64,000 nt of DNA from positions 1,488,001 through 1,552,000 of the forward strand of contig CAWUHX010000024.1 of assembly GCA_963922205.1 (NCBI GenBank), given 5' to 3'. Positions 7,790 to 63,078 of this stretch are shown here, in pieces. The notes beneath the pieces were generated by a model, which saw only the letters and a program-made list of their open reading frames with translations, was not told the origin of the DNA and made no database searches. Each line of letters starts with the position of its first letter. The first letter of the stretch is position 1. Source of the stretch: Romanomermis culicivorax (lineage: Eukaryota > Nematoda > Enoplea > Mermithida > Mermithidae). A program made the position numbers and the translations under genes.

Positions 7790-8195
7790 ATGCAAAAAAT
7801 TATTTTTTGAAACCATAAACTTTATATAACAAAATTGTGTAATTTTGGGTGTTTCCGGGACTTTGGGCCGTGGTATAATTGGTTTGAAATTGGTTCGAGA
7901 CCATGTTTTCAAAAAAGAAAAAAGTATCTCCTGAGGGACACTGGGTAGATGCACGGGGCGAAGTATCGAAGTCGGGGAAGCTACGTCCAATGTGGGACAT
8001 ACTGACACTGGAGGCTCTGAAAAAGGCCGTTTTCTGTTTTTGGGTCCCCACCGAGCACCATTTGCAGATAGAGGCCAAATGACCACATCCACATGTGCCC
8101 TACAATTTGATCCTTTGCCCGAAATTATGAAAAAACGGACTTTTTTACCGTTTTAGCTCTAGGTGGGGGAGGGAGGCGGCCAACTTTGGGGGTCC
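7790..8195 (-). repeat. Partial LTR related to the 16-kb retrotransposon
   Basis: Read on the minus strand, this matches the second half of the long direct repeats at 39018-40442 and 53854-55279. Shared segments include AGAGCTAAAACGGTAA-like sequence, CATTTGGCCTCTATCTGCAA, a CTCGGTGGGG block and the terminal CAAAATTGTGT...TATAAAG region. Divergence is high, so it is an older relative or solo-LTR relic. Confidence 0.6.
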
Positions 8196-8199
8196 ATGT

Positions 8200-33659: not shown

Positions 33660-34480
33660 TGTGTGTTATGGTCCTATGCTATAACATACAAAAAATTTTT
33701 TTCCATTTTCGACATGTTATAACATAGGACTATGTTATAGCATGTCAGTATGTTATAACATATACAATTTTATAATATATAATATGTTATAAAATATAAT
33801 ATGCTTCATCATATCACATGTTAAAACATAGGCATGTTATAACATAGGGTATGTATAGCGCAGAGAATGTTATATTTCGAGGCATGTTATAACACGTGGT
33901 ATGTTATACGATAGGTTATAACATGGGGTATGTTATAACAAGAGAAGCTATGTTATAACACAGCAGGGTATGTTATGAGAAAGTGAATGTTGTAACATGG
34001 GAAGGTATGTTATAACATGGGGTGTTTTATAACATGCTGTATGTTATAACATATGGCATGTTTTAACATGTCCTATGTTATAACATAATCAGGCTGCTAT
34101 ATTTTGTGTGTTGTGACAAATATAACATAACATATGTTATAAAATGGGACATGTTAAAACATGTGATATGTTATAACATATCCCATGTACCATGTTATAA
34201 CATGTCCCACATCATAAAATATACCACATTAAATTATATACATGTTATAACATACCCCACGTTATAATATATCCAGTGTTATAGCATATGTTATGTCATA
34301 TTTGTCACAACACACAAAATAAAACAGCCTGATTGAGAATAAGAGCAAGTTATGAGATTATAACATATGGCTTCAACAAGGAAATTTTTTGGAAAAAAAC
34401 ACTTTTTTTATACATTATGATATAGGTTATTGTTATAACATATTTTGTATGTTATAAGATACATTATAAGAAATAAAATA
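33660..34480. repeat. Array of GTTATAACAT palindromes
   Basis: Dozens of ATGTTATAACAT-type 10-12-bp palindromes are spaced irregularly over about 800 bp. Inside it, 34088-34336 is itself a long hairpin: an AATCAGGCTG...TTTTGTGTGTTGTGACAAATAT block recurs inverted at its other end. The region could be a foldback transposon whose interior expanded. Confidence 0.75.
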
Positions 34481-39017: not shown

Positions 39018-40442
39018 ATGAATCAGCCAAATAACTTATCATTTTGCATGAAAATCTGAAACAAAGTAAGGACAGTTGCCAGGCCCAATTTTGAATTAAT
39101 TCTGAAGACTACCACGATGACGAAGAAGTGGAGGCCATCATTAGTTATTTTATGAAAAATGAGATGTTGGTTTTACCTGAAATGGATGATGCTTCTCCTT
39201 GGCATCTTCTTTGGATTAATTTTGTTGATTTTTATAATGTTTATTCTGATTATTAATCTGGTCATATATTGAATGAATTGTTGAAAATTTGAGTTTTTTT
39301 CATATTTCAGCTCACAGTATATGTTACTGTTAAATACTTGACACTTAAAAAACTGTGCATTTTTCATCCCAGTTTTGGCTATGCGCTCTTTTTTCTTTTC
39401 ACTCTTCCTTTATTTGTTTTTTCGAGTTTTTCATTTCTTGAGTGAATTTTTATGTATATTTATTTTATTTTTAAGGCATTTTCAGAAAGAGATTTTCAAA
39501 GGGATTCACAATATGTTGGTTGTGCTGTGCTTATAGCATTTTCAATGGATATATAACTGCGTGAAAATTCTGAATCTGAAAATTAGGTGTAAACACATTC
39601 TTAGGACTAGGACCTGACTTTGTTGTAGCAGTGAGAAACATGCTATTAGATGAGTTTCATATGAGAAAAAGATGTGGCCAAAACAGATCTCTGCTGGTAA
39701 AGCATATCAGCTATAACTCTCAAATATGTGTTGAGACAGCTTGTTTTACATCTCACTTTTCTGAGAATTTCTTGAGATTTCACAGTCGTAAATGGTTAAA
39801 GCTTATTCAGAAATGTGAGACAAATAATTCCCTACATCTACTGAGAATTTAAGACCTCGTGTATGATTTGCAGCCTCAAAAATGGTCGACTTTAAGCGAA
39901 CCTAAAAATTTTTTCGAGTGCTTGGCTGAGTCTTATTTATACTTTACTTTTATCATAGGTGGCGCGACCAGGTCAACCTATAATATACTTGGCCCTCAAA
40001 TTTCATGCCCCCCCTAGAGCCAAAACGGTAAGAGCTAGAACCTTCGGGTTTTTCGCATAATATCGGGCATAGCGGCAAACTATGGGGTGCCTTTTGTCAT
40101 TTTGCCTCTATCTGCAAGTAGTGCTCGGTGGGGCCCCAAAAACATGCAAAAAGCGCACTTTTTAAGGCCCCCCAGTTCCACCATGCCCAGCAATCGGTGT
40201 GCCATATCCAACCTCCATACTTCGGCCTGAGCATCTTGGGGATGTAATCTCAAATGTGAATTTTTTTTTTAAATATGGCCTCCATTCAATTATATGGTTG
40301 TCCAAAGTCCCGGAAAACGCCAAATTCCCCAATTTTGTTATATAATACTTATGGGTTCAAAAAAAATTTTTTTTGGAGCATAATGCACTACTAATTTTTT
40401 TGCAGTTTCAATTGAACCTGTAGCCTTACTGGAATTTTTGGG
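39018..40442 (+). repeat. 5' long terminal repeat
   Basis: 1425-bp direct repeat, also at 53854. It ends ...GGAATTTTTGGG. A TATA-like TTATTTATACTTT lies at about 39932. Its second half (about 39960-40440) is related to the reverse-oriented relic at 7790-8195. The small open frames inside are identical in both copies, but do not look like genes. Confidence 0.85.
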
Positions 40443-40443
40443 G

Positions 40444-40461
40444 TGGTGGCTTCTGACACTT
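40444..40461 (+). other. Possible primer-binding site
   Basis: TGGTGGCTTCTGACACTT starts 1-2 nt after the repeat. A leading TGG is expected, because it pairs with a tRNA CCA end. I could not assign the tRNA. Confidence 0.4.
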
Positions 40462-40535
40462 GCAATACGGAAGAGCGCAGAGTCACTCGAGGTGTCACAA
40501 AACCTAAAGGTTTTTACAAAGACTTAGGGCTCAAA

Positions 40536-41342
40536 ATGTCCAAAAATACTGAGGATTTAGCCTCTGGTACGACTTTGCCGAGGACTCCGCCTGGTGTAAG
40601 GCATGATGAGTTGGATAAATCTTTCCCATTGCCCGTGGTATCTAATACTATGAGCAAGAGGAAAGGCTCTGACTCAAGTGCCATAAGCCAGCGGGCTGAG
40701 GTAAAATTGGACCCAGTAAGCGCTCCCACTTCCGTAGCACCTATAATGGCCAGCAATAATATCAATAATATGGCCACGGCAAAGGAACTATTGACTGCCG
40801 ACGATAGAGACGCTCAATTATTAGCGCCTATTGATAGAAGGCCGAAACTGGCCGAGGATCATATTGATCCATTTGATCAATTTAGAGAGGAACGTTTTCG
40901 ACGACCTCGACAACGATTTGATACGTATCATCGCGAATACGTCAACGAAAATATGGATAATATTATTCGGGACGATTACCGTCACGATCCACTGGACGAC
41001 TTACATTTCGAAATGAGTCAAAAGGATGACGAAATTCGACGACTAAACGTCAAAATTGATAAAATGGCCGATTCGATGGTCGGAGTCCAAGGACTATTGG
41101 AAAGATTCGTCCTGGATCAAAAGGAAAGGGATATCCCAGTGAGTATGACTACAGACAGACCATTGCAAACTCAGGATATGTGTAGAACTTTGCCAACGAC
41201 GTCTGCAACCTGTATTGCCAATGACCAAAGGTTACGGCAGATGGAAGCAGATGAGTCAGAGCAAAAGTTCACAGTCAAACCTGCTGTGAAATCAAAGGTT
41301 TCTACAGAAAAACGGGTAACTGAACCGCTTGCTGTTCGATAA
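40536..41342 (+). CDS. gag: gag, N-terminal block (ends at in-frame TAA)
   Basis: The first good ATG (40536, A at -3) opens a hydrophilic, charged protein with a likely coiled coil (MSQKDDEIRRLNVKIDKMA). The frame is also open upstream to the repeat. It stops at TAA 41340-41342. The next codons continue open in the same frame into the main gag-pol frame, so this is the front part of one polyprotein interrupted by a stop. The break could be a nonsense mutation or a readthrough stop. No retroviral matrix motif was recognised, but gag N-termini of this group are poorly conserved. Confidence 0.7.
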   Translation: MSKNTEDLASGTTLPRTPPGVRHDELDKSFPLPVVSNTMSKRKGSDSSAISQRAEVKLDPVSAPTSVAPIMASNNINNMATAKELLTADDRDAQLLAPIDRRPKLAEDHIDPFDQFREERFRRPRQRFDTYHREYVNENMDNIIRDDYRHDPLDDLHFEMSQKDDEIRRLNVKIDKMADSMVGVQGLLERFVLDQKERDIPVSMTTDRPLQTQDMCRTLPTTSATCIANDQRLRQMEADESEQKFTVKPAVKSKVSTEKRVTEPLAVR

Positions 41343-44300
41343 CAAGCAAGTGATATAGTTGCTCAATTTTTCCAAGAGGCTGATGAGGAAGCAGCAGGTA
41401 GTCATAGGGAAAGCAAACATACTACGTCGAAGCACAAACGATCCAAAAAGTCCACACGAGGAAATTCATCAGATTCTGATGACTCCTCAGTGGATGGATT
41501 GGAGCCTACTGTGTCAGATATAGTGAAGGCTGTAAAGCCAAAGCTACTCCTCAATGACATGACTGAGACACAAGTTCTCAGCTTCCTAAATGATTTAGAG
41601 GCAGAATTTACTTCAGAAACTACTGATAAAATGAAGCTGGCTGCCTTACGAGCGCTTTCTAAGGGTGTACCGAAAGCTACTGCCAAAAGGTTCAAAAGTT
41701 ACGAAAAAGCCCGAAGAAAGTTGCTCAAAGTGCAAGCTCCAGATTCAAATGTCGGTATGCAAACAAGGGAGCTGATGAACATAAAGCAGGAATTTGATGA
41801 AGCTCCAGTGAAATTCCTCAAGAGAATTAGTGTGCTAGTAGATAGATTATATCCTAATAAGACCGAAGAGTTCAGAGATCGTTTCATAATTGATACCTTT
41901 TTGTATAAAGCATCTGAAGAGTATCAGATGGAGTTGCTAGATCAAAGAGAAAAGTATGAAACATGGCACGATTTAGCAGAGGATGTGCACAAGATTGATA
42001 AGCGGAACACAGCTGCTTATAAAAAGAGAGGAACTGCGGAGTCTCCAATTGTGATAAATGAGGTGATGATGGGTGAAGGGCAAGCTGAAGTGGCTTATGT
42101 CGGTAGAAATAAATTTGGCAATGCCCCACAAAGGCAGTTTCAAAATAAAGCTATGCGACAGCAAGCAAGGAGAGAGAAGCAAGCCCCGATCCTAGTGTCA
42201 GAAAAGAAGGATTCCGATACTTCTATAGAAGAGAATAACTCACAGGGGACTCAAATGGCTACTACTCCCCAAAAGGGAAAAGAGCCTGAGGAACCTAGCA
42301 GTGATTCTGTTCTAGCAAAGTTATCACAGGAGATTGCGAAGTTGGCTCAGTGTTATCAGGAGATAAGCCAAAAAACTGATGCTAAATTGAATGAAATTTC
42401 TGCCAAAGTTAATAAGGGCAAACCCCAAAAACCTGGTGGAAACGAGTTCAGGAAACCATATTGTCGATACCATAGAAATAATTCTCATGACACGTCCGAA
42501 TGTAAAACCCTTCAATGGAAAAATGCACAAGGACGTAATTGGGATAATCGATATGGTGGAAACAGAGGTTTCAGGCAACAGTTTGGAGGCTTTAGAGGAG
42601 GATATGTTGGCGGGAGCAGTAGAGGTGCTCATGCCGTAGGTTATTATGGTGATACCATGGATTATGATACTTATCAACGATTCATGGATTACCAGAATAG
42701 ATTGCGGAATGAGCAACTCTATATGGCACCACAACTGCCAGCCCCTAGCCAACAGCTGATGATCACAGCTCCCCCTCAAGGTCAGGTTCAAATCAGTAAC
42801 CCTAGCCCAAGTGTGCAAGCCATTTCCAGTAGTCAACCATCCACGTCCAGTCAGACAGAGTTGGGATCTGCTGGAGGTGTTAATAGCATTGCCACTACGG
42901 GTCAAGGTGTTAGTGAGATGAAATGGCCTGGAGTATTGAAGTGTGCCATGATGAAAGAGGATTATTCAAAGGTTACAAAAGCGTTCAAGCATGGGATAAT
43001 TCCCAATCAGGAGGAACGATTAAGGTTTTCTAAATTCCCTCCAACTCTCCCATTTCACATTAATGTGACCGTATGTAATAATAACACCAAGGCTTTAGTG
43101 GATACTGGTGCTCAGTGTTCGGTGATGTCTTCATGGTTTCTTAAGGAAGCTTTTGATGAAGAATATACCGGATATCCTGAGATACTAAAAGTCACTGTTG
43201 CTGATGGTGCAGTAGTACATGCACATGGTTACATACAGTTCAAAATGCATTGTGAATTTGGAGTTTTCTTGGTGAAAGCCATAATCATTCCTAATGCGGA
43301 GGAAAATCTCATAATTGGAACGGATTTCTTAGCACATCCGGATGTTGGAGCAATGATAGATTTTGGTAAAGGTATCATGAAACTTAATGGAGTTGAGAAA
43401 GCTATAAGTGTTGTACCTAAAGATCACGCGAGTCATATACAAGCTATTGATTGTATAGGGGAAGCACCTATAGTACATTCAAGTCCTGAAGAGGATCAAT
43501 ACCCCAGGATCTGCCAATTAGGTATAGTGGTTCCAGTGGTATCATGTACGAAAGTATACATACCACACGGAACTGATGTGCTTATTAAGGCAAGATTATG
43601 GGAACGATCGTCTAAAACAGATCTCAATTGTTTGGTCATAGATGGAAATAAAGAGGAAAAGAAATTCAGAGTTGATAGCACACTGGTTGATGGTAAACGG
43701 GAAGACTTTGTTCTGATGATTTCAAATAATACAGGTTCCGGATGCCAATTGCAACCTAACCAGGTTGTAGGCTACTGTGACTCAATATTACAAGAAAATT
43801 CAGGAGTATCAGATGTACAAAGTACGAGTTGTGGGATATTTAGTGTTGAAGATAATTTTAATGCCACTCCCAGAATGTCCGTGCATGATGCATTGGCATT
43901 TAGGGAAGCGCTGTATAAAATGATCTCCAAGGCTGATATCAATGAGGAATTAAAGGAAACAGCTGTAGCAAAACTGTCTAAATACAGGGATGTTTTCAGC
44001 TTACCCAATGATCCCTTAACTACAACACCGTATCTTACGTGCAAAATTGATACTGGTAATGCAATGCCAGTGGCAAAACATTATTACAGAGCTCCCATTA
44101 ACCAAAGATCAGGGATTAGAGCTCAAGTCCAAGACATGTTAGATAAAGGAGTTATTGAACTCAGCCAGTCACCATGGGCTGCTCCACTTTTCCTAGTTGG
44201 GAAAAAGGACGGTTCCACGAGACCAGTTGTGGATTTCAGAGGTATAAATGAGGTTACTAAGGACGATAGGTATCCTATACCTAGAATGGATGATTATTTG

Positions 44301-44765
44301 GATTGTCTAGGTAATGCCAAATTTTATACCACATTGGATCTAAAGTCTGGATATTGGCAAGTCCCACTTGAGGAGAGTAGCAAGGAGAAAACTGCATTTA
44401 TATGTCAGGAAGGCCTATATCAGTTCAAAGTTATGCCTTTCGGACTTAAAAATGCACCTGCAGAGTTTCAAAGAATGATGGAGAGAGTGTTGCATGGTCT
44501 AGTCTGGAGAATCTGCCTAGTTTATATTGATGATATCATTGTGTTCTCCAAGACTTATGAGGAACATTTGGAGAATTTAGAGTTGGTCTTGCAAGCTCTT
44601 CGGAAAGCAAAGCTAACACTTAAACCAGAGAAGTGCGAATTTCTTCCAAAAAGTGTTCATTTTCTTGGACACATACTGGACGAAAATGGAATCTCACCAG
44701 ATCCGAAAAAAGTGAAGGCTATTACGGAATTCGAATTTCCCAACAGCGTTAAGCGTATGCAATGA
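41343..44765 (+). CDS. gag-pol: gag C-terminal part, protease and reverse transcriptase (ends at in-frame TGA)
   Basis: Open throughout; the first Met is at 41490 (1091 aa from there). Numbered from that Met: a capsid-like helical region at about 20-190; a Zn-binding motif CRYHRNNSHDTSEC at about 324; aspartic protease VDTGAQ with D at about 538, and LIIGTDFL near 607; reverse transcriptase with VDFRGIN near 914, MPFGLKNAP near 981 and the catalytic YIDD at about 1012. Reverse transcriptase copies the element's RNA in virus-like particles. The frame is closed by TGA at 44763-44765 in the thumb/connection region, and the same frame continues immediately with RNase H. The TGA is one transition away from a sense codon. 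Confidence 0.93.
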   Translation, partial: QASDIVAQFFQEADEEAAGSHRESKHTTSKHKRSKKSTRGNSSDSDDSSVDGLEPTVSDIVKAVKPKLLLNDMTETQVLSFLNDLEAEFTSETTDKMKLAALRALSKGVPKATAKRFKSYEKARRKLLKVQAPDSNVGMQTRELMNIKQEFDEAPVKFLKRISVLVDRLYPNKTEEFRDRFIIDTFLYKASEEYQMELLDQREKYETWHDLAEDVHKIDKRNTAAYKKRGTAESPIVINEVMMGEGQAEVAYVGRNKFGNAPQRQFQNKAMRQQARREKQAPILVSEKKDSDTSIEENNSQGTQMATTPQKGKEPEEPSSDSVLAKLSQEIAKLAQCYQEISQKTDAKLNEISAKVNKGKPQKPGGNEFRKPYCRYHRNNSHDTSECKTLQWKNAQGRNWDNRYGGNRGFRQQFGGFRGGYVGGSSRGAHAVGYYGDTMDYDTYQRFMDYQNRLRNEQLYMAPQLPAPSQQLMITAPPQGQVQISNPSPSVQAISSSQPSTSSQTELGSAGGVNSIATTGQGVSEMKWPGVLKCAMMKEDYSKVTKAFKHGIIPNQEERLRFSKFPPTLPFHINVTVCNNNTKALVDTGAQCSVMSSWFLKEAFDEEYTGYPEILKVTVADGAVVHAHGYIQFKMHCEFGVFLVKAIIIPNAEENLIIGTDFLAHPDVGAMIDFGKGIMKLNGVEKAISVVPKDHASHIQAIDCIGEAPIVHSSPEEDQYPRICQLGIVVPVVSCTKVYIPHGTDVLIKARLWERSSKTDLNCLVIDGNKEEKKFRVDSTLVDGKREDFVLMISNNTGSGCQLQPNQVVGYCDSILQENSGVSDVQSTSCGIFSVEDNFNATPRMSVHDALAFREALYKMISKADINEELKETAVAKLSKYRDVFSLPNDPLTTTPYLTCKIDTGNAMPVAKHYYRAPINQRSGIRAQVQDMLDKGVIELSQSPWAAPLFLVGKKDGSTRPVVDFRGINEVTKDDRYPIPRMDDYLDCLGNAKFYTTLDLKSGYWQVPLEESSKEKTAFICQEGLYQFKVMPFGLKNAPAEFQRMMERVLHGLVWRICLVYIDDIIVFSKTYEEHLENLELVLQALRKAKLTLKPEKCEFLPKSVHFLGHILDENGISPDPKKVKAITEFEFPNSVKRMQ

Positions 44766-47144
44766 TTTCTGGGGATACTGCAATGGTGTAAGAAATTTAT
44801 CCCAAACCTTGCAAATCTTGCGGAACCGTTGTATAAGCTTACCGCTACGGGAAAGAAGAAGTTCCAAGCAACAGAGGAACATCGCCAAGCGTTTGAGAAA
44901 CTGAAAAAAGCACTCACCTCAGTGCCATTTCTATGGTATCCTGTTTTGGATGGAACTGTGGAGTTCATTCTCCAAACAGATGCCAGTGGAACCGCACTGG
45001 GAGCAGTACTTTATCAGAAGACTAAAGATGACCAATGGGTAATAGCCTATAGCAGCCGAATCCTTAAGGAAGACGAGAGGAAGTGGTGTGCTACAGAGCG
45101 AGAATGCCTAGCGGTTGTCTATGGTCTTAAAGTTTACCGGCACTATTTGTTTGGGCAAAAAGTATTGATCAAAACTGATCATAAACCTCTCTTATCTATG
45201 AAAGTTAATACTCAAACTAATGATAAATTGAAAAGATGGTATTCCATTATAAATCAATTTAATCATAGGTTGGAGTATGTGCCTGGTAGACAAAACGCAA
45301 TGGCCGATTTTCTCTCAAGAAAAGATGAACCCGAAGACGCTAAGGACAAAAACCCACCAAAATGGGAATATGTCTTCAAAATTCAATTTTGTAATTTCGG
45401 AACTCAAACCAATGAAATTGAAAGCCAAATAGTGGTACAACAATTTCAGAGGATGAGGGACGAAGAGGTTGAAAGTAGAGACGAAAAAATTGTCCCCAAG
45501 CAGACCGAGGAATTGACGGATATCCAGGAATTGACGGTAGGAAATGACAGCATTGCACCAACTACCAAAGATGTATTGCAGAGCAGAAATGAAATGCAGA
45601 AGCTTACGGTAGTTGATGCAGTCACAACTAGAAGACAAGCAAAACTTCAGGATCAGAGTGCACAAAATCAAGAACAGGGTACATCTGTACCCAATGATCC
45701 TGAAAACATTGCTTGGCTTTTCCCGAATAGAGAAAAGGAGTTTGAAGAGGTGAAGGAAGGAGAAAAGGAAGAAAAGGATGATGATAAGATCGATTATCCA
45801 ATTGATCTAAATGTTATCGCTCAATTGCAAAAAGAAGACACTAATCTTACCCCAATTTGGGAAAGATTAGGGGTCAAAAACACTACGAAGTATCATAGTG
45901 GATTCTATGAGGATAACGGAGTTCTTTATAGGGAAACTGAGGGACGTGGCCATGATCAGATCGTGGTCCCGAATTCCCTCAGAGACAGCATACTTCACCA
46001 ATATCACGGAGCCGTTATAATGACACACCAAGGGTTCAAAAGAACTCTGGGTATTGTCAAACAGCGGTTCTGGTGGCCTGGCATTGAAAAAGATGTCAGA
46101 AATTGGTTGAAGTTTTGCCCTGTCTGCCAAGTGGCTACTCCCCGTAAAAGCTCCATATCCCCATTGATACCCATTATACCGGAGGGTCCCTTGGATATTG
46201 TGTCTGTGGACATAGTAGGGATTGCTCCCTTGAGGGAACCTCGCCCATATGTCATTGTCTTTCAGGATTATTTCACTAAATGGGTTGAAGCTATATTGAT
46301 TCCTGATCAGACGGCTGAAACCATAGTGGATGCATTCTTAGAGCATGTGATATTTAGGCACGGTACCCCAAGAAAACTTCTTAGTGATAATGGATCTGGA
46401 TTTAATTCAGATCTTATGAAAGCAGTCTGTAAACTGTTAGAGTGCAGAAAAATTTTCACAACAGCATACCACCCACAGGGTAATGGTATGGTTGAGAGAT
46501 TTAACCAAACTCTAATAAAGCAGCTGCGAAAAGTTGCAATTGAGGATAACAATAAATGGCCAAGGTACCTCAGTGCAGTGGTATTTGCATATAATGCCAC
46601 ACCTCACGCAGCAACAAAATGCTCACCATTTTCACTGCTGCGGGGGCATGAAGCTAATTTTGGTATCGATTTCACTGCTGCCCTTAGAATAGTCATGCCT
46701 AATGACTATGAGGCTTACAAGTATGTTTTGGCTACCCATCTTACAAATTTGTACGAAAGTATTGCCGAAAACATACAAAAAGCCGCTAAGGACAGCAAGA
46801 AATATTTTGATAACAAAATTAAAACTTCTGGTTTTAAAAATCAAGATTGGGTTCTGTTGAAAGTAGACAGACAGAAAAAATTGGGGTTACCTTGGCAAGG
46901 ACCATATATCATCATCGATGATAAAAGATTGAAAGACAATGTGCTCACAATAGCGCATTGGAATAACCCGCTTAAAAAGCAGGTCGTATCGGCAAGTAGG
47001 CTAAAACACTTTCGATACGAAGGTACCAGATGGTTTCGACACGAAATGTCGCAGGTCTTCCGGGATACTCCAGTTAATGCAACTGGAAATCCCGCCGAAA
47101 CCGAAGATCATCCGGTCGTTATTTCGGTGTCTAAAAATTTTTAG
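44766..47144 (+). CDS. pol: RNase H and integrase block of pol
   Basis: Same frame as the preceding block. Counted from the Met at 44829 (771 aa): RNase H with QTDASG at about 50, RECLAVVYGLKVYRHY and KTDHKPL; an HHCC zinc finger near 390-435 (HQGF...CPVC); integrase core D,D35E with VSVDIVG (~460), LSDNGSGF (~519) and GNGMVERFNQT (~555); a C-terminal GPY-type motif LPWQGPYII. These carry out RNA template removal and insertion of the cDNA into host DNA. No chromodomain follows. A TAG at 47142 ends the frame. AATAAA at 47176-47181 could give a gag-pol mRNA its own 3' end. Confidence 0.93.
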   Translation, partial: FLGILQWCKKFIPNLANLAEPLYKLTATGKKKFQATEEHRQAFEKLKKALTSVPFLWYPVLDGTVEFILQTDASGTALGAVLYQKTKDDQWVIAYSSRILKEDERKWCATERECLAVVYGLKVYRHYLFGQKVLIKTDHKPLLSMKVNTQTNDKLKRWYSIINQFNHRLEYVPGRQNAMADFLSRKDEPEDAKDKNPPKWEYVFKIQFCNFGTQTNEIESQIVVQQFQRMRDEEVESRDEKIVPKQTEELTDIQELTVGNDSIAPTTKDVLQSRNEMQKLTVVDAVTTRRQAKLQDQSAQNQEQGTSVPNDPENIAWLFPNREKEFEEVKEGEKEEKDDDKIDYPIDLNVIAQLQKEDTNLTPIWERLGVKNTTKYHSGFYEDNGVLYRETEGRGHDQIVVPNSLRDSILHQYHGAVIMTHQGFKRTLGIVKQRFWWPGIEKDVRNWLKFCPVCQVATPRKSSISPLIPIIPEGPLDIVSVDIVGIAPLREPRPYVIVFQDYFTKWVEAILIPDQTAETIVDAFLEHVIFRHGTPRKLLSDNGSGFNSDLMKAVCKLLECRKIFTTAYHPQGNGMVERFNQTLIKQLRKVAIEDNNKWPRYLSAVVFAYNATPHAATKCSPFSLLRGHEANFGIDFTAALRIVMPNDYEAYKYVLATHLTNLYESIAENIQKAAKDSKKYFDNKIKTSGFKNQDWVLLKVDRQKKLGLPWQGPYIIIDDKRLKDNVLTIAHWNNPLKKQVVSASRLKHFRYEGTRWFRHEMSQVFRDTPVNATGNPAETEDHPVVISVSKNF

Positions 47145-47561
47145 CAGAAAATGCCGTATACGTGTATTTTATGTGAATAAAATTTCTATTTATTGTGTTA
47201 TTTAACCGATTTATATTCGTTTAATACCTTTCTTAAATTTTGGGTAGCAAAGGGTCAAATTTTCAGAATAATATTGTTAATTTGTACACCCGACACTAAA
47301 ATTTTTGGATTACATTTTGGGAGGTTTACGACCAATTTTCATTTTCAATTTCAAAAGTCGTATTTTTCTTGTGCTCCGCGTCGCACAAAATTTTCGGAAC
47401 AAATTTTTTCGTCCAGCCCAAGGACCCGATAAAATTATTTTCGGTAATTTCGTATATTGTATCGATACTGAAGTAATGATAAGTGTTCTTTAACATTTTG
47501 TTTACTTTAGAAGATACAACGCGGAATTTTAGAAAAAAAAAATTTAAAAAATTTTTTTAAA
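47145..47561 (+). other. gag-pol / ORF3 intergenic region
   Basis: 417 nt. Contains AATAAA (47176-47181) and, at 47501-47510, TTTACTTTAG, a plausible splice acceptor for a subgenomic mRNA that would start ORF3. No coding sequence was recognised. Confidence 0.4.
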
Positions 47562-50500
47562 ATGTCGAAATTAGGCGTTGCGCCTTTCGCGCGAAATTAT
47601 TGCGCACACGCCGACCACATCAAGGCGGGCCAACCGCAAGGCCGCCAAAACAATTGTTATTTTTTGACCGACGGTAAGTTTTTTATTTAATTATTTCTTG
47701 GTATGTGGGATGAATTCGCCCATTTAGGTGTCTTAGGAATGATTTCTTCACGCTCAATTTTCTGAATGGGCCAACCAAGGGGAAAACGAGTTCGAAGAAA
47801 AGTTTCTAAAAATGTTAGGATAGGTGAAAAGAAAAAACCTAATGGATTTACGGCCCTAAAAAGCCAAAGTCTAATGGTTTTTACCTTGGATCCGATTCCG
47901 AAGCATTTATTTTTGGTTTTATTGAAGCCCCTGGTTTACTAAATTTATTTCTTGGATTAATTAAAACCTTAATTGGTATTTATTCATTACTTAATTTTGG
48001 TACCGAGGCGTGAAGTTATCGCTAGGGTAAGTGGTAAATTGACGGCGGCCGACGTCGAGAAGCGAAAGGTGGTGCAGATGTGAGGTTCCTGAAAAATTGG
48101 TGTAGCATTTGCGTTAACCACTGGGCCTGCTTACTTTATGACTTTGACACCTAACCTCACTAATTAATTTATTTTTCCCCACGCTAAATCTTTTTTTCTA
48201 AATTGGTGCCGGTCAAAGTTGATTATTTATTTCGTGGTGGTGGCCTAATGCCTGATTTATAAAGGGTCAAGGGGCAAATTCTTTTTGATTTTTAGACTAC
48301 AACATCAAGCGTCTGGTCCGCGTCGGAGAAATCGAACAATGGTTCGCCGGCGCGATGGGTTATTGGCCGCAAAGACCAATGGAACCCGAACGGGTTCACG
48401 GCGGCAACATCGAACCAATCCTGAAGCAATTGGCCACAAGCCAGTTTCGGGGGCTAGGCGTTGTCGGATTTGACGTCGAAAAGGTCAAGAAGACCGAGGT
48501 ATGTATTATACCTTATAAGGTAGCGATCCAGAACCGGGAAGGGAAAGAGTTCGCTAGGCTGGTGTCATTTGCACACATAGATGGTTCCAGCTTTGTGATC
48601 GACCTTACAACATTGAAGCCGCAGGAGTGGGATCTTTTGATTTCATTCCTGGCATCGGTGGATCGTTTCTTGGTCGGTTTCAAAGTTGTGGACGATCTGG
48701 TTGCAATTTTGAACGTCTACGGATCCGGGTCAGGGGCCTCGGCTCATGATAAGACGAAAATTATACAGGCCCGTATACTCCAAGGATTTGGAAAATATTG
48801 GGACTGTGAAATTTGCGTCAGATTGATGACGGGGCCCATGGCCAATCACGCTCGTGATTTAGGATTGTGTCCTGAAAACCTTGGGTTAAAAGGACTTTTC
48901 ACCGAATTTTACTTGGCTGATGTCGGCAAATGCCAATGCGACTTCGGTGACAAAAAGATTCGAGAAAAGTTCTTGGCCCCCAAGATTCAAGACACAGAAA
49001 TTGTGTATGCTGGCCTGGACGCTTATTATTCAATTGCCGTATTTTTAGGGTTCTTTCACTACGGGTTTTGCGGTGAATTGAGTGGGGTTACGGCAACGTA
49101 CCCCCATGATATTGTATCGCCGGCCCAAGTAAAGACCTTGGCCTTCCGCTTTTATACGGTGTACTCTCAAGACCTAATGGGGTTCGAGGATCGAAACTTC
49201 GTAGATGAGAAGGACATCATAAAGAGGCAGTTGTTGAAGGTCTACCATATGATGCGGCAAGAGGTAATGGCCAGGTGGGCTACACAATTTCATAATGACT
49301 TGCCAGAATATTCGTGTCCTGCGGATATTAAAAATCCCGCTAAAGCTACGGACCACACTTTACTGTCTGGGGTTTATCCCAAGGCGCTAAAAGCTGGTCC
49401 AAGCAAAAAGAAAAGAAATCAGTGGGAAGACGTAAGTGATCCGGAGGACATGGATACAATGGAACAACAAGTCAATAGGACAAACGAGGTGATAAACCGG
49501 CTGCACACAGAAATGTTGCAAGGGGTTTCATTTTTCAAATTGACGGATCCTGTAGATGTTGTATGGTATATCACAGCCGGTCTTGCCATGAATAAGACTC
49601 CTCGACAGGACTGGTCGAAGCAGCTTCAATCGTTCCAACTCGGAACGGACTGCTACAAACCAGTGGAAATCGACACCGGTATGGCTAAGTACGACAGGGA
49701 TCACTGGATGGCAGACTTGAGGAATTACGAGCATGTCATGGACTCAACGAAGTTTCCTGCGTTGGAGAAGGCATGCAACCTAATTCCTCTACCATTCTTT
49801 GTTTTCTGGCCTCATAGCCGTGCCGAGTACGACTACATACTGAGGGAATTATTGAATTATAATTTCCTCAAATCCTACTCGAAGGAGGATGCAGAATTAA
49901 TAAAGAAGATGGCATGGAAGACCGATGACAGGGTTTTACAGAATTACGACATAGTAGCATCATTACCGCCAACGGAACCTGAACATGCTGTAAAAGGCAA
50001 AAGGGTTACGACCTGGCAAAATAGGTTTGGTTTTATGCCTATTCGGTTGCGCTTGCTCAACAAAATAGGTTCTCCAATTTCGACGGAAAAAGCAAAAGAC
50101 AATATTACCCATAACAAGGATTATTGGGCCAACTGCTTTTTCTACGTCAGATTCTACTATGCGGAATTTGGTAGTAAAACCCCGTCACTGCGATATGGCC
50201 TATCACCAGACACGCCTACTCTTCAGACGGGTCAGATCAGATGTATACCGGCTGATTATCCGTTGTATACTATTGAATTTCCTGAAAAGTGTATTCACCG
50301 GAGGCCTCTGCCGTCGGAATTACCCATGGTTATCTATTCATACCGTAATCAAACCAAACAATCCGATTTCAGGACGAAATCCGATATACTAGACCCTGAT
50401 AATGAACCCACAGTTCAAACGGGTCTAGTGGACGAGGACGTCACGGAATTGGAGAGTGAGGATGAGGATAATTCCGCACTCCTGGGAGAGGAAAGCTGCA

Positions 50501-52359
50501 AGGAGGTTGACGACGAAGACGCATTATTGTATATTTCGATCGCGGACCCCCAAGTAGCCGAATCTGCGGTGACAGCACCTTCTGTCACGCAGTTGCAACC
50601 GCAACCACAAGTTGTGACGCAGCTGCAGACGGAAATGCTGCCGCCGCCGCCTGGCTTACCTACACCACAAGTCACACAAACATCTATGGATGCGAGTCAG
50701 TACTTGTCTAGCGTAGAAAGTCAAGCGCAATCGGAAGAAATTCCGATTACCCAGGACGAGCAGAACGTCTATGATCAGGCATATATTAATGAGTACATGG
50801 ATGCCGAAGGTGGAAAGAAGAAGGAGGAAGAGCAGACAGCAGGGACACCTAGCCATACTGTGGTGGAAACACCACAAGAGCTAGCGGCCCGGCTGGCTGA
50901 AGAGGATAAGGAAATTCAAGTATTAGCCTTGACCTGGGACAAAGAAGGTGTTCCCGGATACTATACTGCTGAGGCGATAAAAAATATGAAAATAAAAGGT
51001 TTAAATGATAGGCAAATTTTCGTTAACTTGAAAAAGAAACGAAAAACAAAAGCCCGTCAGGAGAAGAAAAAGGTGGAAAAGGCAATTGCGCAGCCTGCAA
51101 AGGTTACGCAGCCGAAACCTGCCAAAACTTCTGCTCCGGCTTCAGCAACGGTATCTGTGACCACCGTATCTTCAACTACTCCTGTGTCGCAGACTGTCTC
51201 TACAGGTACTTTATCGATGGCAACGAGTCAGTCCACGCAATTTGTGTCGCAGGCTACGGACACCTCTGCTTCCGGACGGCGTCAGCCTAAGGTGCAGGGA
51301 GCTCCTAGCAAGCCACAGGTTGCAGGACAAAAAGTTCAAATCTTTACACCAGGAAAGATAAAGCCGTTAACTCTGGTTACTGTTGACCCAAATCAACAAA
51401 CACCAGAAATGACGGTGGAGTTATTCCGGGATGTATTGTTGGATTTTTGGCAAGTCACCAAAGATAAAAGTAGAGTCAGAGGTCCAATTTCTTTTGCTAC
51501 ACCGGAATTGGCTAATTATTTCTGCGACGAGCAGTTTGAAGATCCAGAGATTTGGCTGATGGTCAATAAAGCGGTCAGGACTATATACAAACTGTATCAG
51601 CCACAGTTTGATGTCCAAGGTGGATTTTTATACGACTTGCGAAATATTCCAGAGCCACTATGGGATAGGATCATTCGTGAGATTGTCCTTGAATGGCTCA
51701 CGGAATATCGAGGGAGTGTCGTATTTGCAGCTGTCAGATATTTGTGTATGATGATATTCCTTATGCTTGACTATGCACCACTTACGGCTGAGCAGATCGG
51801 TAAACGATCGGTCTCAGCCAAAGTGTTTGCAAACATCATGCTGTTACAGGAATATCGGAGTGCCACTGCTTCGGATGTTTTCAAGACTGCCTATCGCTTG
51901 GTGATGTATAATTACAGTCAACAAGCGGCGGAGATGGATGTCAAAAGGTCAGGTAGCCCAAGTCCTCCGACTACTGTTAAATTTAGCAAAGTTCAGAACG
52001 ATGCGGGACAGACCTTTCGGGCACCCGGACCCGCAAGCAGTCAAACTGGTGGTCAAGGAGCCACGGTTGGTATAGCCAACCAGGTCTTTGCTGGCCCCAG
52101 TTCTGGCACTGGGCAAGCCTCCAGAACCGTTCCGAAACAACAGCAACCTATACAGCATCTACAGGGTGCTAGGGGAGCTCGTGGAGGACGGGGAAGGGGT
52201 GCCCAACCAGGCCAGTTTCATTTTAACAATCCGAACAGGGGCAGAGCTGGTTACGTTGGTGGCCGAGGTATATACCGAGGACAACACCCTCGTGGTGCAT
52301 TCCGAGGTCGCGGAGGTCATCAACAAGGCCAGCAGCAAGGCGGCGGGCAGCAACAATAA
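47562..52359 (+). CDS. ORF3: DEDDy 3'-5' exonuclease with RGG tail (spliced, ~1391 aa)
   Basis: Exon 1 is 47562-47673, beginning MSKLGVAPFARNYCAHADH. A GT-AG intron spans 47674-48295, and exon 2 is 48296-52359; the junction restores an Asp codon and stays in frame. Without the intron, translation could start at ATG 48355 (1334 aa). Counting from 48355: Exo I GFDVEK (D40, E42), Exo II LVGFKVVDDL (D114) and Exo III YAGLDAYYS (Y218, D222), with the spacer LGLKGLFTEFY usual for RNase D/WRN-type nucleases. All four acidic residues and the Tyr are present, so it should be active on RNA or DNA 3' ends. The next ~700 residues are unidentified. They are followed by acidic, Thr/Gln and Ser/Thr-rich linkers, a helical domain (~1020-1190), and an RG/RGG and Gln-rich end (RGARGGRGRG), an RNA-binding type tail. 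It sits where errantiviruses have env, but no signal peptide or clear membrane anchor is seen. Confidence 0.88.
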
Positions 52360-53853
52360 TTTTTAGCCGCCAAAATCTTGGTCAAAAATCCTCCATTCTT
52401 GACTTCATTTCATTTATTCAAAAAATACAAAAAACACAAAAACATAAAAAATTACAAAAATCCAAAAACATTAAAAAACATAAAATACAAAAATATTATT
52501 TAAACTTTTGGTTGTGTTGTTGCCTTTCAAAAAATCTCATTTTCTGGCCAAGCTCATCGCTTGAGTCCACATTTTTGGTTTAATTTTCTTTCACTTATTT
52601 TTCATTTGTTATTTTTTCTCGTATTTTAATCTCGTCATTTTGCCTCGTATTTTTCTTGTCGTTTTTTCGGTGTCTTGTAAATTTTTCTTGTTATTTGTGC
52701 CTCGTATTTTAAAATTTTGCTCAATTTTTTCGCCCTACTAGTTTTGTAAATATTTGTTCGCCATATCGTATTTTAAATTTTTTCGTACAAAAAATTGGCG
52801 ACGAACCGAAAGGGGCGATGGAGCGGATGAAAGTAGCCGATTACTGCAAGGATTGGGACGCTGCTGCCAAAGACACTCCACATCACTCAATGGGACGAAG
52901 CGATCGACTGTGGAGGAAGGTACCTAGGAGCCTCAAGGCACGCTGGCGAAGCCAGGGAAAAGTCAAGCCGATGCAGAGTCGTCGATCCGTCAGATGCCGG
53001 ATCAGTGATCGATCGTGCCGCGGCATCTCAGTGGACAGACCTAGGTAACCTTGTAAAAAGACTTGACGTTGGAGGTGGTCTTGACCCGTACACCCTTCAG
53101 GGTCAGGTCAGGACGATTATGACCCGTACACCCTTCGGGGTCGGATCATAATCCTTTTAAGTTGGGATCCAGTAGTAGGTCACACCGTAAAAGGTAAAAG
53201 TCCTGCTCACGGTTTCCTTCTTCACCTCCCGTTGGTCAGTTTCAAGGCCCGAGGGATGTTGGGGATGTGCTTACGGCAGTAGCAATCCCACATCTATGCA
53301 AAATTGGTGAATCGACAAAGTTACGATTCGACCAAAAAGAGCAATGTTTATCATTCTCGTACTTTGGTGTGTTTCGGGCGAGTCGCGTCCGTTATAAATT
53401 ATATTGTACTGTTTCGCCTAGTAAAGGCCGACGCTGACAGCCCCACACCACATTTGCATATTATTATTATAATAATTATTTATTATTTATATTATTATTA
53501 TTACTCGCGCATTGAGCGGTTGGAGGGAGTCGTCTTACACGGGAGCCAAGCCAAGGTGAAGCCCCAGTCCTTTTGGATATTATTGAAGTGAGTTCTGTGT
53601 ATTTGTGTGAATCTTTAGGAGGCATCTGGGGAGACCCTGAGTGCCCTTCGATTGCAAGAGTTAGAGTTTCCAGTTACTTATTAGTGACTGAAGGTTGTGT
53701 TTATTTCTGCTTAAGGACTGTTGCACTGTGTTCAGTTGATTGCTAATAGGAAGCTCCTTTGAGTGACCTACAGTAGTCGATTGAGTACAAGCTGATAGGA
53801 CTTGAGTCATATTGCTGACATCTTCGGATCTAAGCAGAGAAGTAAACATAACA
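52360..53853 (+). other. 3' internal region between ORF3 and the 3' repeat
   Basis: T-rich to 52795, with repeated CTCGTATTTT / TTGTCGTTTTT motifs. Then TTGGCGACGAACCGAAAGGG at 52796, which resembles a gypsy primer-site leader, and a short basic frame (52818-53048). GACCCGTACACCCTTC-(A/G)-GGGTC is repeated at about 53083-53143. TGTTGGGGATGTGC at 53259, after a purine-rich GAGGGA, resembles an LTR start, and TTATAAATTATA at 53391 looks like a TATA box. ATT/TTA microsatellite at 53460-53502. An AAGCAGAGAAG near 53833-53843 is the nearest purine tract to the 3' repeat. Confidence 0.5.
52818..53048 (+). CDS. Small basic ORF of unknown function
   Basis: 76 codons, starting MERMKVADYCKDWDAAAK; the second half is Arg/Ser-rich. 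It follows a primer-site-like TTGGCGACGAACC. An AAG/GTACCT at about 52917-52922 could be a splice donor, so only the first ~34 codons may be coding, as a leader exon. No family recognised. It may be noise. Confidence 0.25.
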   Translation: MERMKVADYCKDWDAAAKDTPHHSMGRSDRLWRKVPRSLKARWRSQGKVKPMQSRRSVRCRISDRSCRGISVDRPR

Positions 53854-55279
53854 ATGAATCAGCCAAATAACTTATCATTTTGCATGAAAATCTGAAACAA
53901 AGTAAGGACAGTTGCCAGGCCCAATTTTGAATTAATTCTGAAGACTACCACGATGACGAAGAAGTGGAGGCCATCATTAGTTATTTTATAAAAAATGAGA
54001 TGTTGGTTTTACCTGAAATGGATGATGCTTCTCCTTGGCATCTTCTTTGGATTAATTTTGTTGATTTTTATAATGTTTATTCTGATTATTAATCTGGTCA
54101 TATATTGAATGAATTGTTGAAAATTTGAGTTTTTTTCATATTTCAGCTCACAGTATATGTTACTGTTAAATACTTGACACTTAAAAAACTGTGCATTTTT
54201 CATCCCAGTTTTGGCTATGCGCTCTTTTTTCTTTTCACTCTTCCTTTATTTGTTTTTTCGAGTTTTTCATTTCTTGAGTGAATTTTTATGTATATTTATT
54301 TTATTTTTAAGGCATTTTCAGAAAGAGATTTTCAAAGGGATTCACAATATGTTGGTTGTGCTGTGCTTATAGCATTTTCAATGGATATATAACTGCGTGA
54401 AAATTCTGAATCTGAAAATTAGGTGTAAACACATTCTTAGGACTAGGACCTGACTTTGTTGTAGCAGTGAGAAACATGCTATTAGATGAGTTTCATATGA
54501 GAAAAAGATGTGGCCAAAACAGATCTCTGCTGGTAAAGCATATCAGCTATAACTCTCAAATATGTGTTGAGACAGCTTGTTTTACATCTCACTTTTCTGA
54601 GAATTTCTTGAGATTTCACAGTCGTAAATGGTTAAAGCTTATTCAGAAATGTGAGACAAATAATTCCCTACATCTACTGAGAATTTAAGACCTCGTGTAT
54701 GATTTGCAGCCTCAAAAATGGTCGACTTTAAGCGAACCTAAAAATTTTTTCGAGTGCTTGGCTGAGTCTTATTTATACTTTACTTTTATCATAGGTGGCG
54801 CGACCAGGTCAACCTATAATATACTTGGTCCTCAAATTTCATGCCCACCCCTAGAGCCAAAACGGTAAGAGCTAGAACCTTCGGGTTTTTCGCATAATAT
54901 CGGGCATAGCGGCAAACTATGGGGTGCCTTTTGTCATTTTGCCTCTATCTGCAAGTAGTGCTCGGTGGGGCCCCAAAAACATGCAAAAAGCGCACTTTTT
55001 AAGGCCCCCAGTTCCACCATGCCCAGCAATCGGTGTGCCATATCCAACCTCCATACTTCGGCCTGAGCATCTTGGGGATGTAATCTCAAATGTGAATTTT
55101 TTTTTTTAAATATGGCCTCCATTCAATTATATGGTTGTCCAAAGTCCCGGAAAACGCCAAATTCTCCAATTTTGTTATATAATACTTATGGGTTCAAAAA
55201 AAATTTTTTTTGGAGCATAATGCACTACTAATTTTTTTGCAGTTTCAATTGAACCTGTAGCCTTACTGGAATTTTTGGG
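53854..55279 (+). repeat. 3' long terminal repeat
   Basis: 1426-bp copy of 39018-40442, offset 14836. Differences noticed: G to A near 53991, C to T near 54829 and near 55168, an extra A in a C run, and ±1 changes in C and T runs. Confidence 0.85.
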
Positions 55280-55286
55280 CTGCTAG

Positions 55287-55965
55287 GGTTTTCGACCATT
55301 GGGAATTTGATGGACGCGGTCACTTTACACAAAAAATTATCCCGGGTGTAAACAAGCGTATTTCCGTGATTTTTCAGTGGAGGGAGTTTTCGACCGCGGG
55401 GATTCAACAGATGTGGTCACTTTACACAGAAAATTATCCCGTGAGTAAACAATCGTATTTTCGTGATTTTTCAGTCGAAGGGGTTTTCGACCACGGGGAA
55501 TTTGATGAATGTGATCATCTTACATAAAAGAACTATCCCGGATACAAGCGTATTTCTGTGATTTTCTATGGAAGGGGTTTTCGACTGCGGGGAATTCAAT
55601 GGATGCTTCACTTTACACAAAAAAGTTATCCAGGGTGTAAACATGCGTATTGCCGTATTTTTTTGTGGCGAGGATTTCCGACCACAATGAATTCCATGAA
55701 TTTGATCAAAAAATTATTCTGCATTTAACCAAGCCTATTTTTGTAATTTTTTGTGGAAGGGGTTTTTGACCATTGGTAATTTAATGAATGCGATCACTTT
55801 ACGCAAAAAAATTTTCTTAGGGAGGGGTTTTCGATCACTGAGAATTTAATGAATGTGATCACTTTACACACTAATTCATATCGAGTGTAAACAAAGGTAT
55901 TTCTGCGATTTTTTGGGTTGAAGGATTCTAGACCATGAGGAATTCAATAGGTATGGTCATTTTTC
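55287..55965. repeat. Minisatellite of ~97-98-bp units
   Basis: Eight degenerate units beginning GGTTTTCGACCxxxGGGAAT and containing CACTTTACACAxAAAATTATC, GTGTAAACAAGCGTATTTC and GTGATTTTTCAG. Unit starts are at about 55289, 55387, 55484, 55578, 55675, 55764, 55828 and 55926; one unit is shortened to 64 bp. The array begins 8 bp after the retrotransposon ends. Confidence 0.85.
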
Positions 55966-56145: not shown

Positions 56146-56151
56146 AGGTGA

Positions 56152-57795
56152 ACTAGTTTATTAGAAAATGCCCCGATGGGGCAGAAAAAAGGAGAATATA
56201 CTTGCTTCGATAGTGCCATGCTAGAAAAAGGAGCGGACTAGACTTTTGAGAACTTGGGTTAAAGTTGGAAAAAATTCATTTTCGTTATATTGGATTTTCA
56301 TTTTTTCTCACTAAAAAATTTTCCATGTCTGTGAAAAAGTATATTCTGCAGCTGAGTGCATCAACACGCTTTCCAACCAAACATGTAGAGCTCCGAAATT
56401 TTAAGGACGGCACTTGGGTGGACCCTGGTTTTTTGACATATTTTGAAACAACAAATTCAATAGTAGTTTTCGAAGAATTTTTTTTCATACAAAATGTTCC
56501 AGCTTGAAAACTCTTAGTGTAGTTTGCTCCCCCATGCCCCCCTTCACACTTCTGTGCTTCCAGTCGTTGAACTTTTGAAATAAATTCAGTGTTAATAAAA
56601 CAGGAATTGACTGTGAAAAAGTGACCCATATAATCCCACAGTTTTTTAGAAAAAAGCAACAGCACAAATCTTCCTAGAACTGAATTGATTGTGCAGGATA
56701 TATTTCATTCAGTCATTTTAGGTAACATATCGTGTAGAATTCACTCTGTAAGCTTTACTGATCACAAGCTATAAACCCTTTTTTCTCTCAATATCTCAAT
56801 AATTTCGCCCATCCCGACCACTCCCGTCCTACTTCCAGAAAAGTCCTACTGTTACCATGGGAGTGCGAGTAGAGAGGGGAAGAAGTGGGAACCGGATTTG
56901 GCGCACACCCCTGATATAGGCATGGCTGAATCAGGAGCTTTTTAATGACATTTTCATGTGCTTTACCATGTTGCCCCATTTGCATATGGTGCCCAATGTC
57001 TGTAACCAAGGCTCAGTTGCACTGAAGAGGTCTAAGCTCGAGCTCAAGATAATCTCGAACAAAAAGGTGACACGGTTTTATCTCAAGTTTGCTGTAATCT
57101 CAATGTCATCAGGATTATAACGAACTCAATGCCGAGATTATCGTCAGCCCTAGCTATCGGGTTGCATTAACATTTTCACATATTTTTCTTATCTCTAAAC
57201 CAAACAAACATAAAAATGTTTGCAATGCCCAAACTCGAACTGAAACCTCAGTATTAGTTAATCCTGAAGTGAGCATTGTTTGTGCACTGAAAGAACATAA
57301 TCTCGACATACCGATTAGCTCATACTGAGGATCACCAATTTAATTCCAATGTTGAGATTATCCTCATGTTGGATTAGTGCAACCAACCACAGGTTTCTTT
57401 ATAGTTCTAAAGATGACTATAATATGCCTCCCTCACTATTTTTCAGCTAGTGTGAGAAGCAGGAATTTTGAATTGGTAGGGAGTTAGAATGCTATTGGTT
57501 TACCATTTCTTTACATTTGAAATCATGTGCATATATTTTTTGTATAGAAAAATTTTACTGTAGTTGATGCCAGGGAAAGGACAAAATGCACGATGCTACA
57601 GAATATACTTTTTCACGGACATGGAAAATTTTTTAGTGAGAAAAAATGAAAATCCAATATAACGAAAATGAATTTTTTCCAACTTTAACTCAAGTTCTCA
57701 AAAGTCTAGTCCGCTTCTTTTTCTAGCATGGCACTGTCGAAGCAAGTATATTCTCCTTTTTTCTGCCCCATCGGGGCATTTTCCAATAAACTAGT
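56152..57795. mobile_element. Long-TIR element L copy 1
   Basis: 1644 bp with inverted repeats of about 205 bp, starting ACTAGTTTATTAGAAAATGC and ending with the complement. The arms contain CCCCGATGGGG, AGGAGAATATACTTGCTTCG, CTCACTAAAAAATTTTCCATG and GAAAAAGTATATTCTGCAG. The interior holds repeat M and TTAGTGCAACC motifs. No coding capacity was recognised. No target duplication is apparent. Confidence 0.8.
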
Positions 57796-61360: not shown

Positions 61361-61364
61361 ACTA

Positions 61365-63078
61365 ACTAGTTTATGAGAAAATACCCCGATGGGGCAGAAA
61401 AAAGGAGAAAATACTTGCTTCGATAGTTGCCATGCAAGAAAAAGAAGTGGGCTAGACTTTTGAGAACTTGGGTCAAAGTTGGAAAAAATTCCACTTTCTT
61501 TAGATTGGATTTTCATTCTTTCTCAAAAAAATTTTCTATGTCTGTGAAAAAGTATATTCTGCAGCTGAGTGCATCAACACACTTTCCAACCAAGCATGTG
61601 CATCTCTGAAATTTTTAGGAGGGCACAGGCGTGGACCTTGGTGTTTTGGCATTTTGTGAGACAAAAAATTCAAAAAAAGTTGACCAAAAAATTTAAAAAA
61701 AGTTGACCAAAAAATTTTTTGCATAACAAATGTTCCAGTTTCAAAACCCTTGTGCACGTTTATGGCCCCATGTTCCCTCTCACACATGTTTGCTTCCAAC
61801 TGTGTTAAACATTTTTACTGAATTTGGTGTCAACAAAAGGAGTCAACTGTGGGAAAGTGGCACATAAAATTCCATTCAGCTTTTTTAGAAAAAAGAGCTA
61901 CAGCACGAAGTCTTCTAAGAACTAAATTGATTGTGCAAGATACGTTTCATTCACTCATTTTATATAACATATCGTATAGAATTCACTCCGTAAGTTCTAA
62001 TGATTACAAGCTATAAACAGATTTATTCTCCTCTATTTGACTATTCAACAAAAACACATCATTCACAGTTTTTGAATTTGAACTGAAATTTGCAGAAAGA
62101 GGGCAAGCTTTTTGGGGGATGGCAGACGGGAAGCAATTTCACCCATTCCTGTCGCTCCCGTCCTGCTTTCAAAAAAGTCGTATTGTTGCCGTGGGAGTAA
62201 AGTAGAATCGGGGAGAACCGGGTACGGGATTTCGCGCACACTCTAGTATAGGCAGGGCTGAATCAGGTGCGTTTTTGTATGCTTTACCCTGTTCTCCCAT
62301 TTGCAGATCGGTGCTCCATGACTGTAACCAAGGTCCAGTTGCACTAAAGAGGTCCGAGCTCGAGCTCAAGATAATCTCGAACAAAAAGGCGACTCGGTTT
62401 GATCTCAAGTTCGGTATAATTTGAATGTCATCAGGATTATAACGAGCTCAATGTCGAGATTATCCCCAGCTCGAGTTGTCGGGTTACACTAAAATTTTCG
62501 CATAATTTTCTTATCTCTAAAGCAAATAAATATAAAAATTTCTGCAATTCCTAAACCCGAAACTCAAACCTCAGTTTTAGTTAATCCTGAAGTGAGTATG
62601 GTTTGTGCATAGGAAGAAAATAATTTGAACATGGTGAATAGCTTAAACTCAGGATCATCAATTTAATCCGGATGTTGAGATTATCCTCATGTTGGGTTAG
62701 TGCAACCAACCTCAGGTTTCTTTATAGTTCTGAAAATGACTATAATATGCCTCTCTCACTATTTTTTCAGCTAATGTGAGAGGCAGGAGTTTTGTATCGG
62801 TAGGAAGTACGAATGCTATTGGTTTACATTTGAAGTCATGTGCGTATAATTTTAATATAGAAAAATTTTACTGTAGCTGATGCCAGGGAAACGACAAAAT
62901 GCACGATGCTGCAGAATATACTTTTTCACGGACATGGAAAATTTTTTAGTGAGATAGAATGAAAATCCAATATAACGAAAGTGAATTTTTCCAACTTTAA
63001 ACCAAGTTCTCAAAATCTAGTTCGATCCTTTTTCTATTCTTTTTTCTGCCTTGCCGGGGCATTTTCTAATAAACTAGT
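61365..63078. mobile_element. Long-TIR element L copy 2
   Basis: 1714 bp in the same orientation as copy 1. It starts ACTAGTTTATGAGAAAATAC and ends TTTTCTAATAAACTAGT. The arms contain CCCCGATGGGGCAG and, on the far side, CTTGCCGGGGC. The interior includes repeat M (62336-62493). No target duplication was seen. Confidence 0.8.

Follow-up and report, generated by a model that had tools for sequence, protein, structure and literature searches.

A stretch of 64,000 nucleotides from the nematode Romanomermis culicivorax (assembly GCA_963922205.1, contig CAWUHX010000024.1, positions 1,488,001 to 1,552,000) constitutes the window analyzed here; all coordinates count from its first letter. It contains a long terminal repeat (LTR) element of 16.3 kb at 39018-55279, whose features lie on the plus strand. 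The element is a Ty3/gypsy LTR retrotransposon, as it is bounded by two LTRs and its pol domains follow the Ty3/gypsy order protease, reverse transcriptase (RT), RNase H, integrase in Pfam searches. Downstream of pol and between the two LTRs lies a third open reading frame (ORF3). A previous inspection of the letters and their translated frames, hereafter the sequence-only reading, had noticed it as the third gene of a 16-kb Ty3/gypsy-like element, and this is confirmed: ORF3 is open, coding in codon usage, and enclosed by the LTRs. Our own profiles, column tests, and a guided structure model support its assignment as a retrotransposon-borne DEDDy 3′–5′ exonuclease-like gene.

The open frame of ORF3 spans 48289-52359, is complete, and comprises 1334 amino acids counted from the Met at 48355. 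A run of 1356 codons without a stop would arise by chance with a probability of about 5e-35, given the background stop frequency. For codon usage, the main exon (48296-52359) scores +272 bits in frame, whereas the two alternative frames reach −362 and −366. The start had been placed at 47562, and an ATG indeed opens a predicted exon 1 of 112 nt there (47562-47673), which joins the main exon in frame through a predicted GT..AG intron of 622 nt (47674-48295). The intron has the donor ACG/GTAAGT and the acceptor TTTTTAG, and its G+C content is 37% compared with 53% in exon 1. This splice is likely, and the spliced product would measure 1391 amino acids. A second consensus donor, AGG/GTAAGT, is found at 48027 inside the predicted intron, so that an extra small exon is possible.

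The DEDDy 3′–5′ exonuclease-like domain occupies 48400-49134, corresponding to residues 16-260 from the Met at 48355. In DEDDy domains, acidic residues hold the metal ions, and nucleotides are removed from 3′ ends. Column alignment to the superfamily places motif I at D40-x-E42 (48472-48480), motif II at D114 (48694-48696), and motif III at Y218-x-x-x-D222 (49006-49020). All five residues of this catalytic set are in superfamily register, with the three motifs in order. FDVE, LVGFKVVDDL, and YAGLDAYYS, described in the sequence-only reading as being in correct order and spacing, do occur in that order; their spacing, however, differs, because insertions make the intervals longer than in RNase D and WRN. 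The distance D40–D114 is 74 residues versus 57 in Escherichia coli RNase D and 61 in WRN, and D114–D222 is 108 versus 70 and 73, respectively. Upon addition to the family alignment by MAFFT, the D, E, D, Y, and D of ORF3 fall on the five catalytic columns. None of 300 shuffles matched all five columns, and 11 of the 300 matched four. Across the 25 rows of the automatic alignment A4, eight columns are invariant, and ORF3 keeps all eight, including the noncatalytic Q, K, and A. A broad profile, for which human and mouse WRN and EXD2 were added and the remaining rows thinned to 24, ranks the domain first of 658 in both hmmsearch and hhalign; the 657 comparison sequences comprise 400 shuffles, 250 tiles cut from retroelement proteins, and seven further tiles of ORF3 itself. 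A motif pattern written by hand matched ORF3 and WRN and none of 20,000 shuffles (0/20000). It was given no weight, as it was written after seeing ORF3, matched 0/120 bacterial family members, and missed RNase D.

A structure model guided by RNase D relatives gives matches to the DEDDy fold that are not independent of this guidance. Its top structure row is Nibbler, and family-A DNA polymerases are also among the rows; EXD2 is absent from the best 50. The rows of E. coli RNase D, WRN, and Nibbler show identities of 12-17%.

The domain is followed by a long middle part and a C-terminal part, neither of which gives a family or structure match above chance. Two basic KKKR stretches, one at 49405-49416 and one within a lysine-rich region at 51031-51042, are possible nuclear localization signals. 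A hydrophobic 19-mer near the C terminus (51712-51768) has a mean hydropathy of 2.05 and is a possible membrane segment. The protein ends with a tail rich in arginine–glycine (RG) dipeptides at 52171-52356, which contains 10 of the 13 RG dipeptides and may bind RNA. An Env-like or structural protein, whose likeness to DEDDy nucleases is owed to chance, would agree with the location after pol, with the hydrophobic 19-mer, and with the absence of any curated family match above chance level; Pfam yields no viral fusion glycoprotein match in ORF3, although it misses the DEDDy domain too, and divergence could hide one. The shuffle control and the first rank among 658 argue against such a coincidence, as do N-terminal residues that by eye are unlike a signal peptide and a tail that is RG-rich, and we regard this explanation as the most improbable of those considered here.

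In a different alternative, the DEDDy fold is kept as a pseudo-nuclease and serves, together with the RG tail, as an RNA-binding platform, perhaps for export, packaging, or localization of the genomic RNA. Egalitarian is such an RNA-binding pseudo-nuclease of DEDDy fold. Among DEDD derivatives, EXD1 and Maelstrom are said to be inactive and to bind RNA (PMC5408684), and a Cer1 protein made from a spliced mRNA is reported to be needed for export of the genomic RNA (PMC10309623). The large extra regions, the basic stretches, and the RG-rich tail of ORF3 fit such a function. Had the domain drifted, some of the catalytic residues should have disappeared, whereas all five are retained in the one ORF3 sequence at hand. 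We consider a pseudo-nuclease rather unlikely.

Gag and pol are encoded in a single reading frame at 40416-47144, which is interrupted by two in-frame stops, a TAA at 41340-41342 and a TGA at 44763-44765. The first segment, an ORF upstream of gag in the gag-pol frame (40443-41342, 299 amino acids), ends at the TAA and is without a family match. The gag-protease-RT frame (41343-44765) matches Pfam RVT_1 (2.8e-40) and gag-asp_proteas (4e-07) and ends at the TGA between RT and RNase H. The RNase H-integrase frame (44766-47144) matches RT_RNaseH (2.9e-31), Integrase_H2C2 (3.9e-19), and rve (4.6e-12). The gag knuckle has the form CX2HX4HX4C, and the integrase carries a GPY motif. A search with pol gave 481 proteins with E <= 0.001, for 120 of which identities are listed. 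The only close relative among these listed matches is P0123, which lies on a contig of 10,055 bases and shares 66% identity with the query across 95% of its length; the remaining 119 are 26-39% identical over the aligned parts. In a tree of 61 rows drawn from the 120 listed matches (the window, P0123-P0179, plus three additional rows from Trichonephila), the window pol and P0123 form an isolated pair on a long branch; this tree comes from a short search and has Shimodaira–Hasegawa-like approximate likelihood ratio test support only. Where the window has the TGA, a sense codon is present in P0123, and therefore the window pol looks damaged at this site. A changed genetic code as the origin of the gag-pol stops was rejected, since there are one TAA and one TGA, neighboring ORFs end with TAG and TAA, and P0123 has the sense codon at the TGA. 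The search of viral contigs with pol, and that of viral contigs and phage records with ORF3, gave no match.

The alignment of the 5′ LTR (39018-40442, about 1.43 kb) with the 3′ LTR (53854-55279) covers 1427 columns at 99.58% identity, the two differing by three substitutions and three one-base gaps. Because this LTR–LTR divergence is only about 0.002, the insertion is young and the element, being young, was active recently. The matched stretch has a TG one base inside its start and ends without CA. A scan of the LTR edges, which are uncertain by a few bases, revealed no target-site duplication of 4-6 bp; a satellite array abuts the 3′ LTR, and it is possible that a duplication was lost after insertion. 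Scanning the LTR for bacterial promoters is uninformative for an element of a eukaryote.

Further features were observed in the window. An LTR-like piece at 7794-8212 (minus strand) is 68% identical to the element's LTR and probably represents an older relative. The satellite array at 55286-55708 starts directly after the 3′ LTR and has a unit of 97 bp (doubled, about 192 bp). A repeat pair at 56151-57795 and 61364-63036 is about 80-84% alike; the copy at 56151-57795 has inverted ends of 210 bp that are 96% complementary and is perhaps a DNA transposon. A tandem repeat at 34004-34334 consists of a palindromic 17-bp unit and is rich in TATAACATG. Rfam at gathering scores gave no match within the window, and ARAGORN found no tRNA in it.

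Several observations weigh against the assignment of ORF3 as a DEDDy nuclease gene. The sequence-only reading had named the lack of a profile match to DEDD nucleases as a refutation and, read strictly, the curated libraries show just this lack: PF01612 is matched neither by the whole protein at E <= 1 nor by the domain at E <= 10, although each of the remaining 24 rows of the 25-row alignment does match it. No nuclease was retrieved from NCBIfam or PHROGs, and the searches of Pfam, NCBIfam, and PHROGs with ORF3 and its pieces returned nothing or chance-level matches only. Likewise, phmmer against the PDB stays at chance level for the whole protein, the domain, the middle, and the C-terminal region, and no homologue of ORF3 was found among 6511 scored candidates. 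A narrow profile of 66 rows (E. coli RNase D, entered twice, with bacterial relatives and NrnC-type proteins) ranks the domain fourth and the whole protein 48th of 1002 in hmmsearch and, in hhalign, the domain second of 248, with one shuffle higher. Even the best absolute scores are low (hhalign P 0.0024 at a score of 27.0; hmmsearch 5.3 bits). The single-sequence AlphaFold model is unusable, with a predicted local distance difference test score of 37.5, and the fold matches of the guided model are not independent of the RNase D guidance. Exon 1 is without codon-usage support, 17.5% of 5429 noncoding windows scoring as high. The gag-pol of this otherwise young copy has in-frame stops, while ORF3 is intact. 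Finally, the nuclear location and the RNA binding of ORF3 are deduced from composition. The DEDDy identity proposed in the sequence-only reading is supported by our own profiles, the column tests, and the guided model, whereas the curated profiles miss the domain. Weighing both sides, we consider it very probable that the N-terminal domain has the DEDDy fold, and it is probably catalytically active.

On these grounds, ORF3 is best understood as an accessory gene of a young Ty3/gypsy LTR element, and the balance leans toward a product that is an auxiliary of replication, trimming or degrading 3′ ends of RNA or complementary DNA (cDNA). The large ORF3 protein would combine an N-terminal DEDDy domain of the RNase D/WRN/Mut-7 superfamily with the long middle part, the basic stretches, and the RG-rich tail. 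It would be made from a spliced mRNA, with the unspliced RNA serving gag-pol. The basic and RG-rich parts may then mediate nuclear entry and RNA binding, and the DEDDy domain may carry out 3′–5′ hydrolysis by a two-metal-ion mechanism. Most likely, the protein would be delivered to the element's RNA or ribonucleoprotein, where 3′ ends of RNA (or cDNA) would be trimmed or degraded. Because of the RG tail, the RNA of the element's own ribonucleoprotein is the likeliest substrate; that the product acts on RNA 3′ ends is nonetheless put forward only tentatively. ORF3s of LTR retrotransposons are described as being made from spliced message, and for the DEDDy genes of rotifers, 3′-end processing of retrotransposon RNAs, a role close to the one favored here, has been proposed by their authors (both PMC5408684).

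Two alternatives accept an active nuclease and assign it a different substrate. First, it could be a counter-silencing factor that trims or destroys the piRNA-like host small RNAs silencing the element. The youth of the element would suit this, as would Nibbler being the first structural row, yet that row stems from a model guided by RNase D relatives; Nibbler is reported to take part in the maturation of miRNAs and piRNAs (PMC5622571). We deem this function improbable. Less probable again is its extended form, in which a deep, unnamed Ty3/gypsy lineage would have acquired a nuclease of Mut-7/Nibbler type, separately from the capture in rotifer elements, and turned it into a 1391-residue nuclear RNA-binding suppressor of silencing that enzymatically destroys or shortens host small RNAs. 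Second, the nuclease could proofread the element's cDNA or trim its ends during reverse transcription. The DEDDy domains of family-A DNA polymerases proofread; such polymerases are among the structure rows, and the element is 16 kb long. ORF3, however, is a separate gene with a predicted spliced mRNA, no link to pol is seen, and we know of no retroelement RT that proofreads via a DEDDy domain; we regard this explanation as highly improbable.

Retroelement-borne DEDDy genes are already a known category, and ORF3 is a divergent addition to it, not the first. The novelty implied in the sequence-only reading is therefore not upheld: DEDDy third genes in LTR elements of bdelloid rotifers and DEDDy ORFs in Terminons were published in 2017 (PMC5408684), and the DEDDy domain of Dada transposons in 2013 (PMC3706591). 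A DnaQ-like exonuclease domain has also been called a well-known accessory domain of LTR elements, with three works cited (PMC6338049); these include PMC5408684 and PMC5348765, but neither exonuclease nor DnaQ occurs in the text of the latter. Apart from those of bdelloids, no LTR elements with a DEDDy ORF3 were noticed in the open-access literature; with such domains being called well known, this is weak evidence of absence. If the ORF3 domain is active, retroelement-borne DEDDy nucleases extend from the rotifer families to another LTR lineage, and this would argue for a repeatable advantage of such a nuclease to LTR elements. The role of DEDDy third genes, a question left by PMC5408684, can now be put to the test on another example that is both divergent and intact. 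Since curated libraries miss the ORF3 domain, further genes of this kind may have escaped notice.

The closest known systems are Juno and Vesta of bdelloid rotifers, whose ORF3s, acquired on at least two occasions, are strongly homologous to DEDDy exonucleases (Rodriguez, Kenefick, and Arkhipova 2017, PMC5408684). They share with the present element the LTRs, gag, pol, and an RNase D-like DEDDy ORF3 downstream of pol, theirs having been recognized via HHpred. The following differences are based on their published descriptions in PMC5408684, not on aligned sequences. The LTRs of Juno and Vesta measure 159-551 bp with TG..CA ends, compared with 1.43 kb and no CA end here. All their members are reported to contain a dUTPase between protease and RT, where no Pfam match at E <= 10 is found in the present element, although a very divergent one could escape. 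Their gag knuckle is CX2CX4HX4C in all but one, versus CX2HX4HX4C. In the rotifer DEDDy ORFs, a change of DEDD to DEED and a lack of transmembrane segments and coiled coils are noted, whereas ORF3 keeps D, E, D, Y, and D and has one hydrophobic stretch. The isolated pol lineage and the divergent DEDDy domain within a 1391-residue protein set the element further apart.

Terminons (Athena, Penelope-like) carry related DEDDy ORFs as well (PMC5408684, PMC6431247) and are thus alike in being retroelements with cargo of the same enzyme class; they differ as endonuclease-deficient, giant Penelope-like elements at telomeres. In Laccaria and Ectocarpus, Dada DNA transposons likewise bear a DEDDy domain with all four catalytic residues, but theirs is located inside the DDE transposase of a DNA transposon (PMC3706591). 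Cer1 CERV resembles the present element by having an extra LTR-element protein made from a spliced mRNA, which is described, in contrast, as a novel RNA-export protein (PMC10309623). With the cellular enzymes RNase D, WRN, Nibbler/Mut-7, and EXD2, ORF3 has in common the catalytic residues in register, and the model guided by RNase D relatives gives a fold match; it differs from them by longer stretches between the motifs and by more than 1000 further residues.

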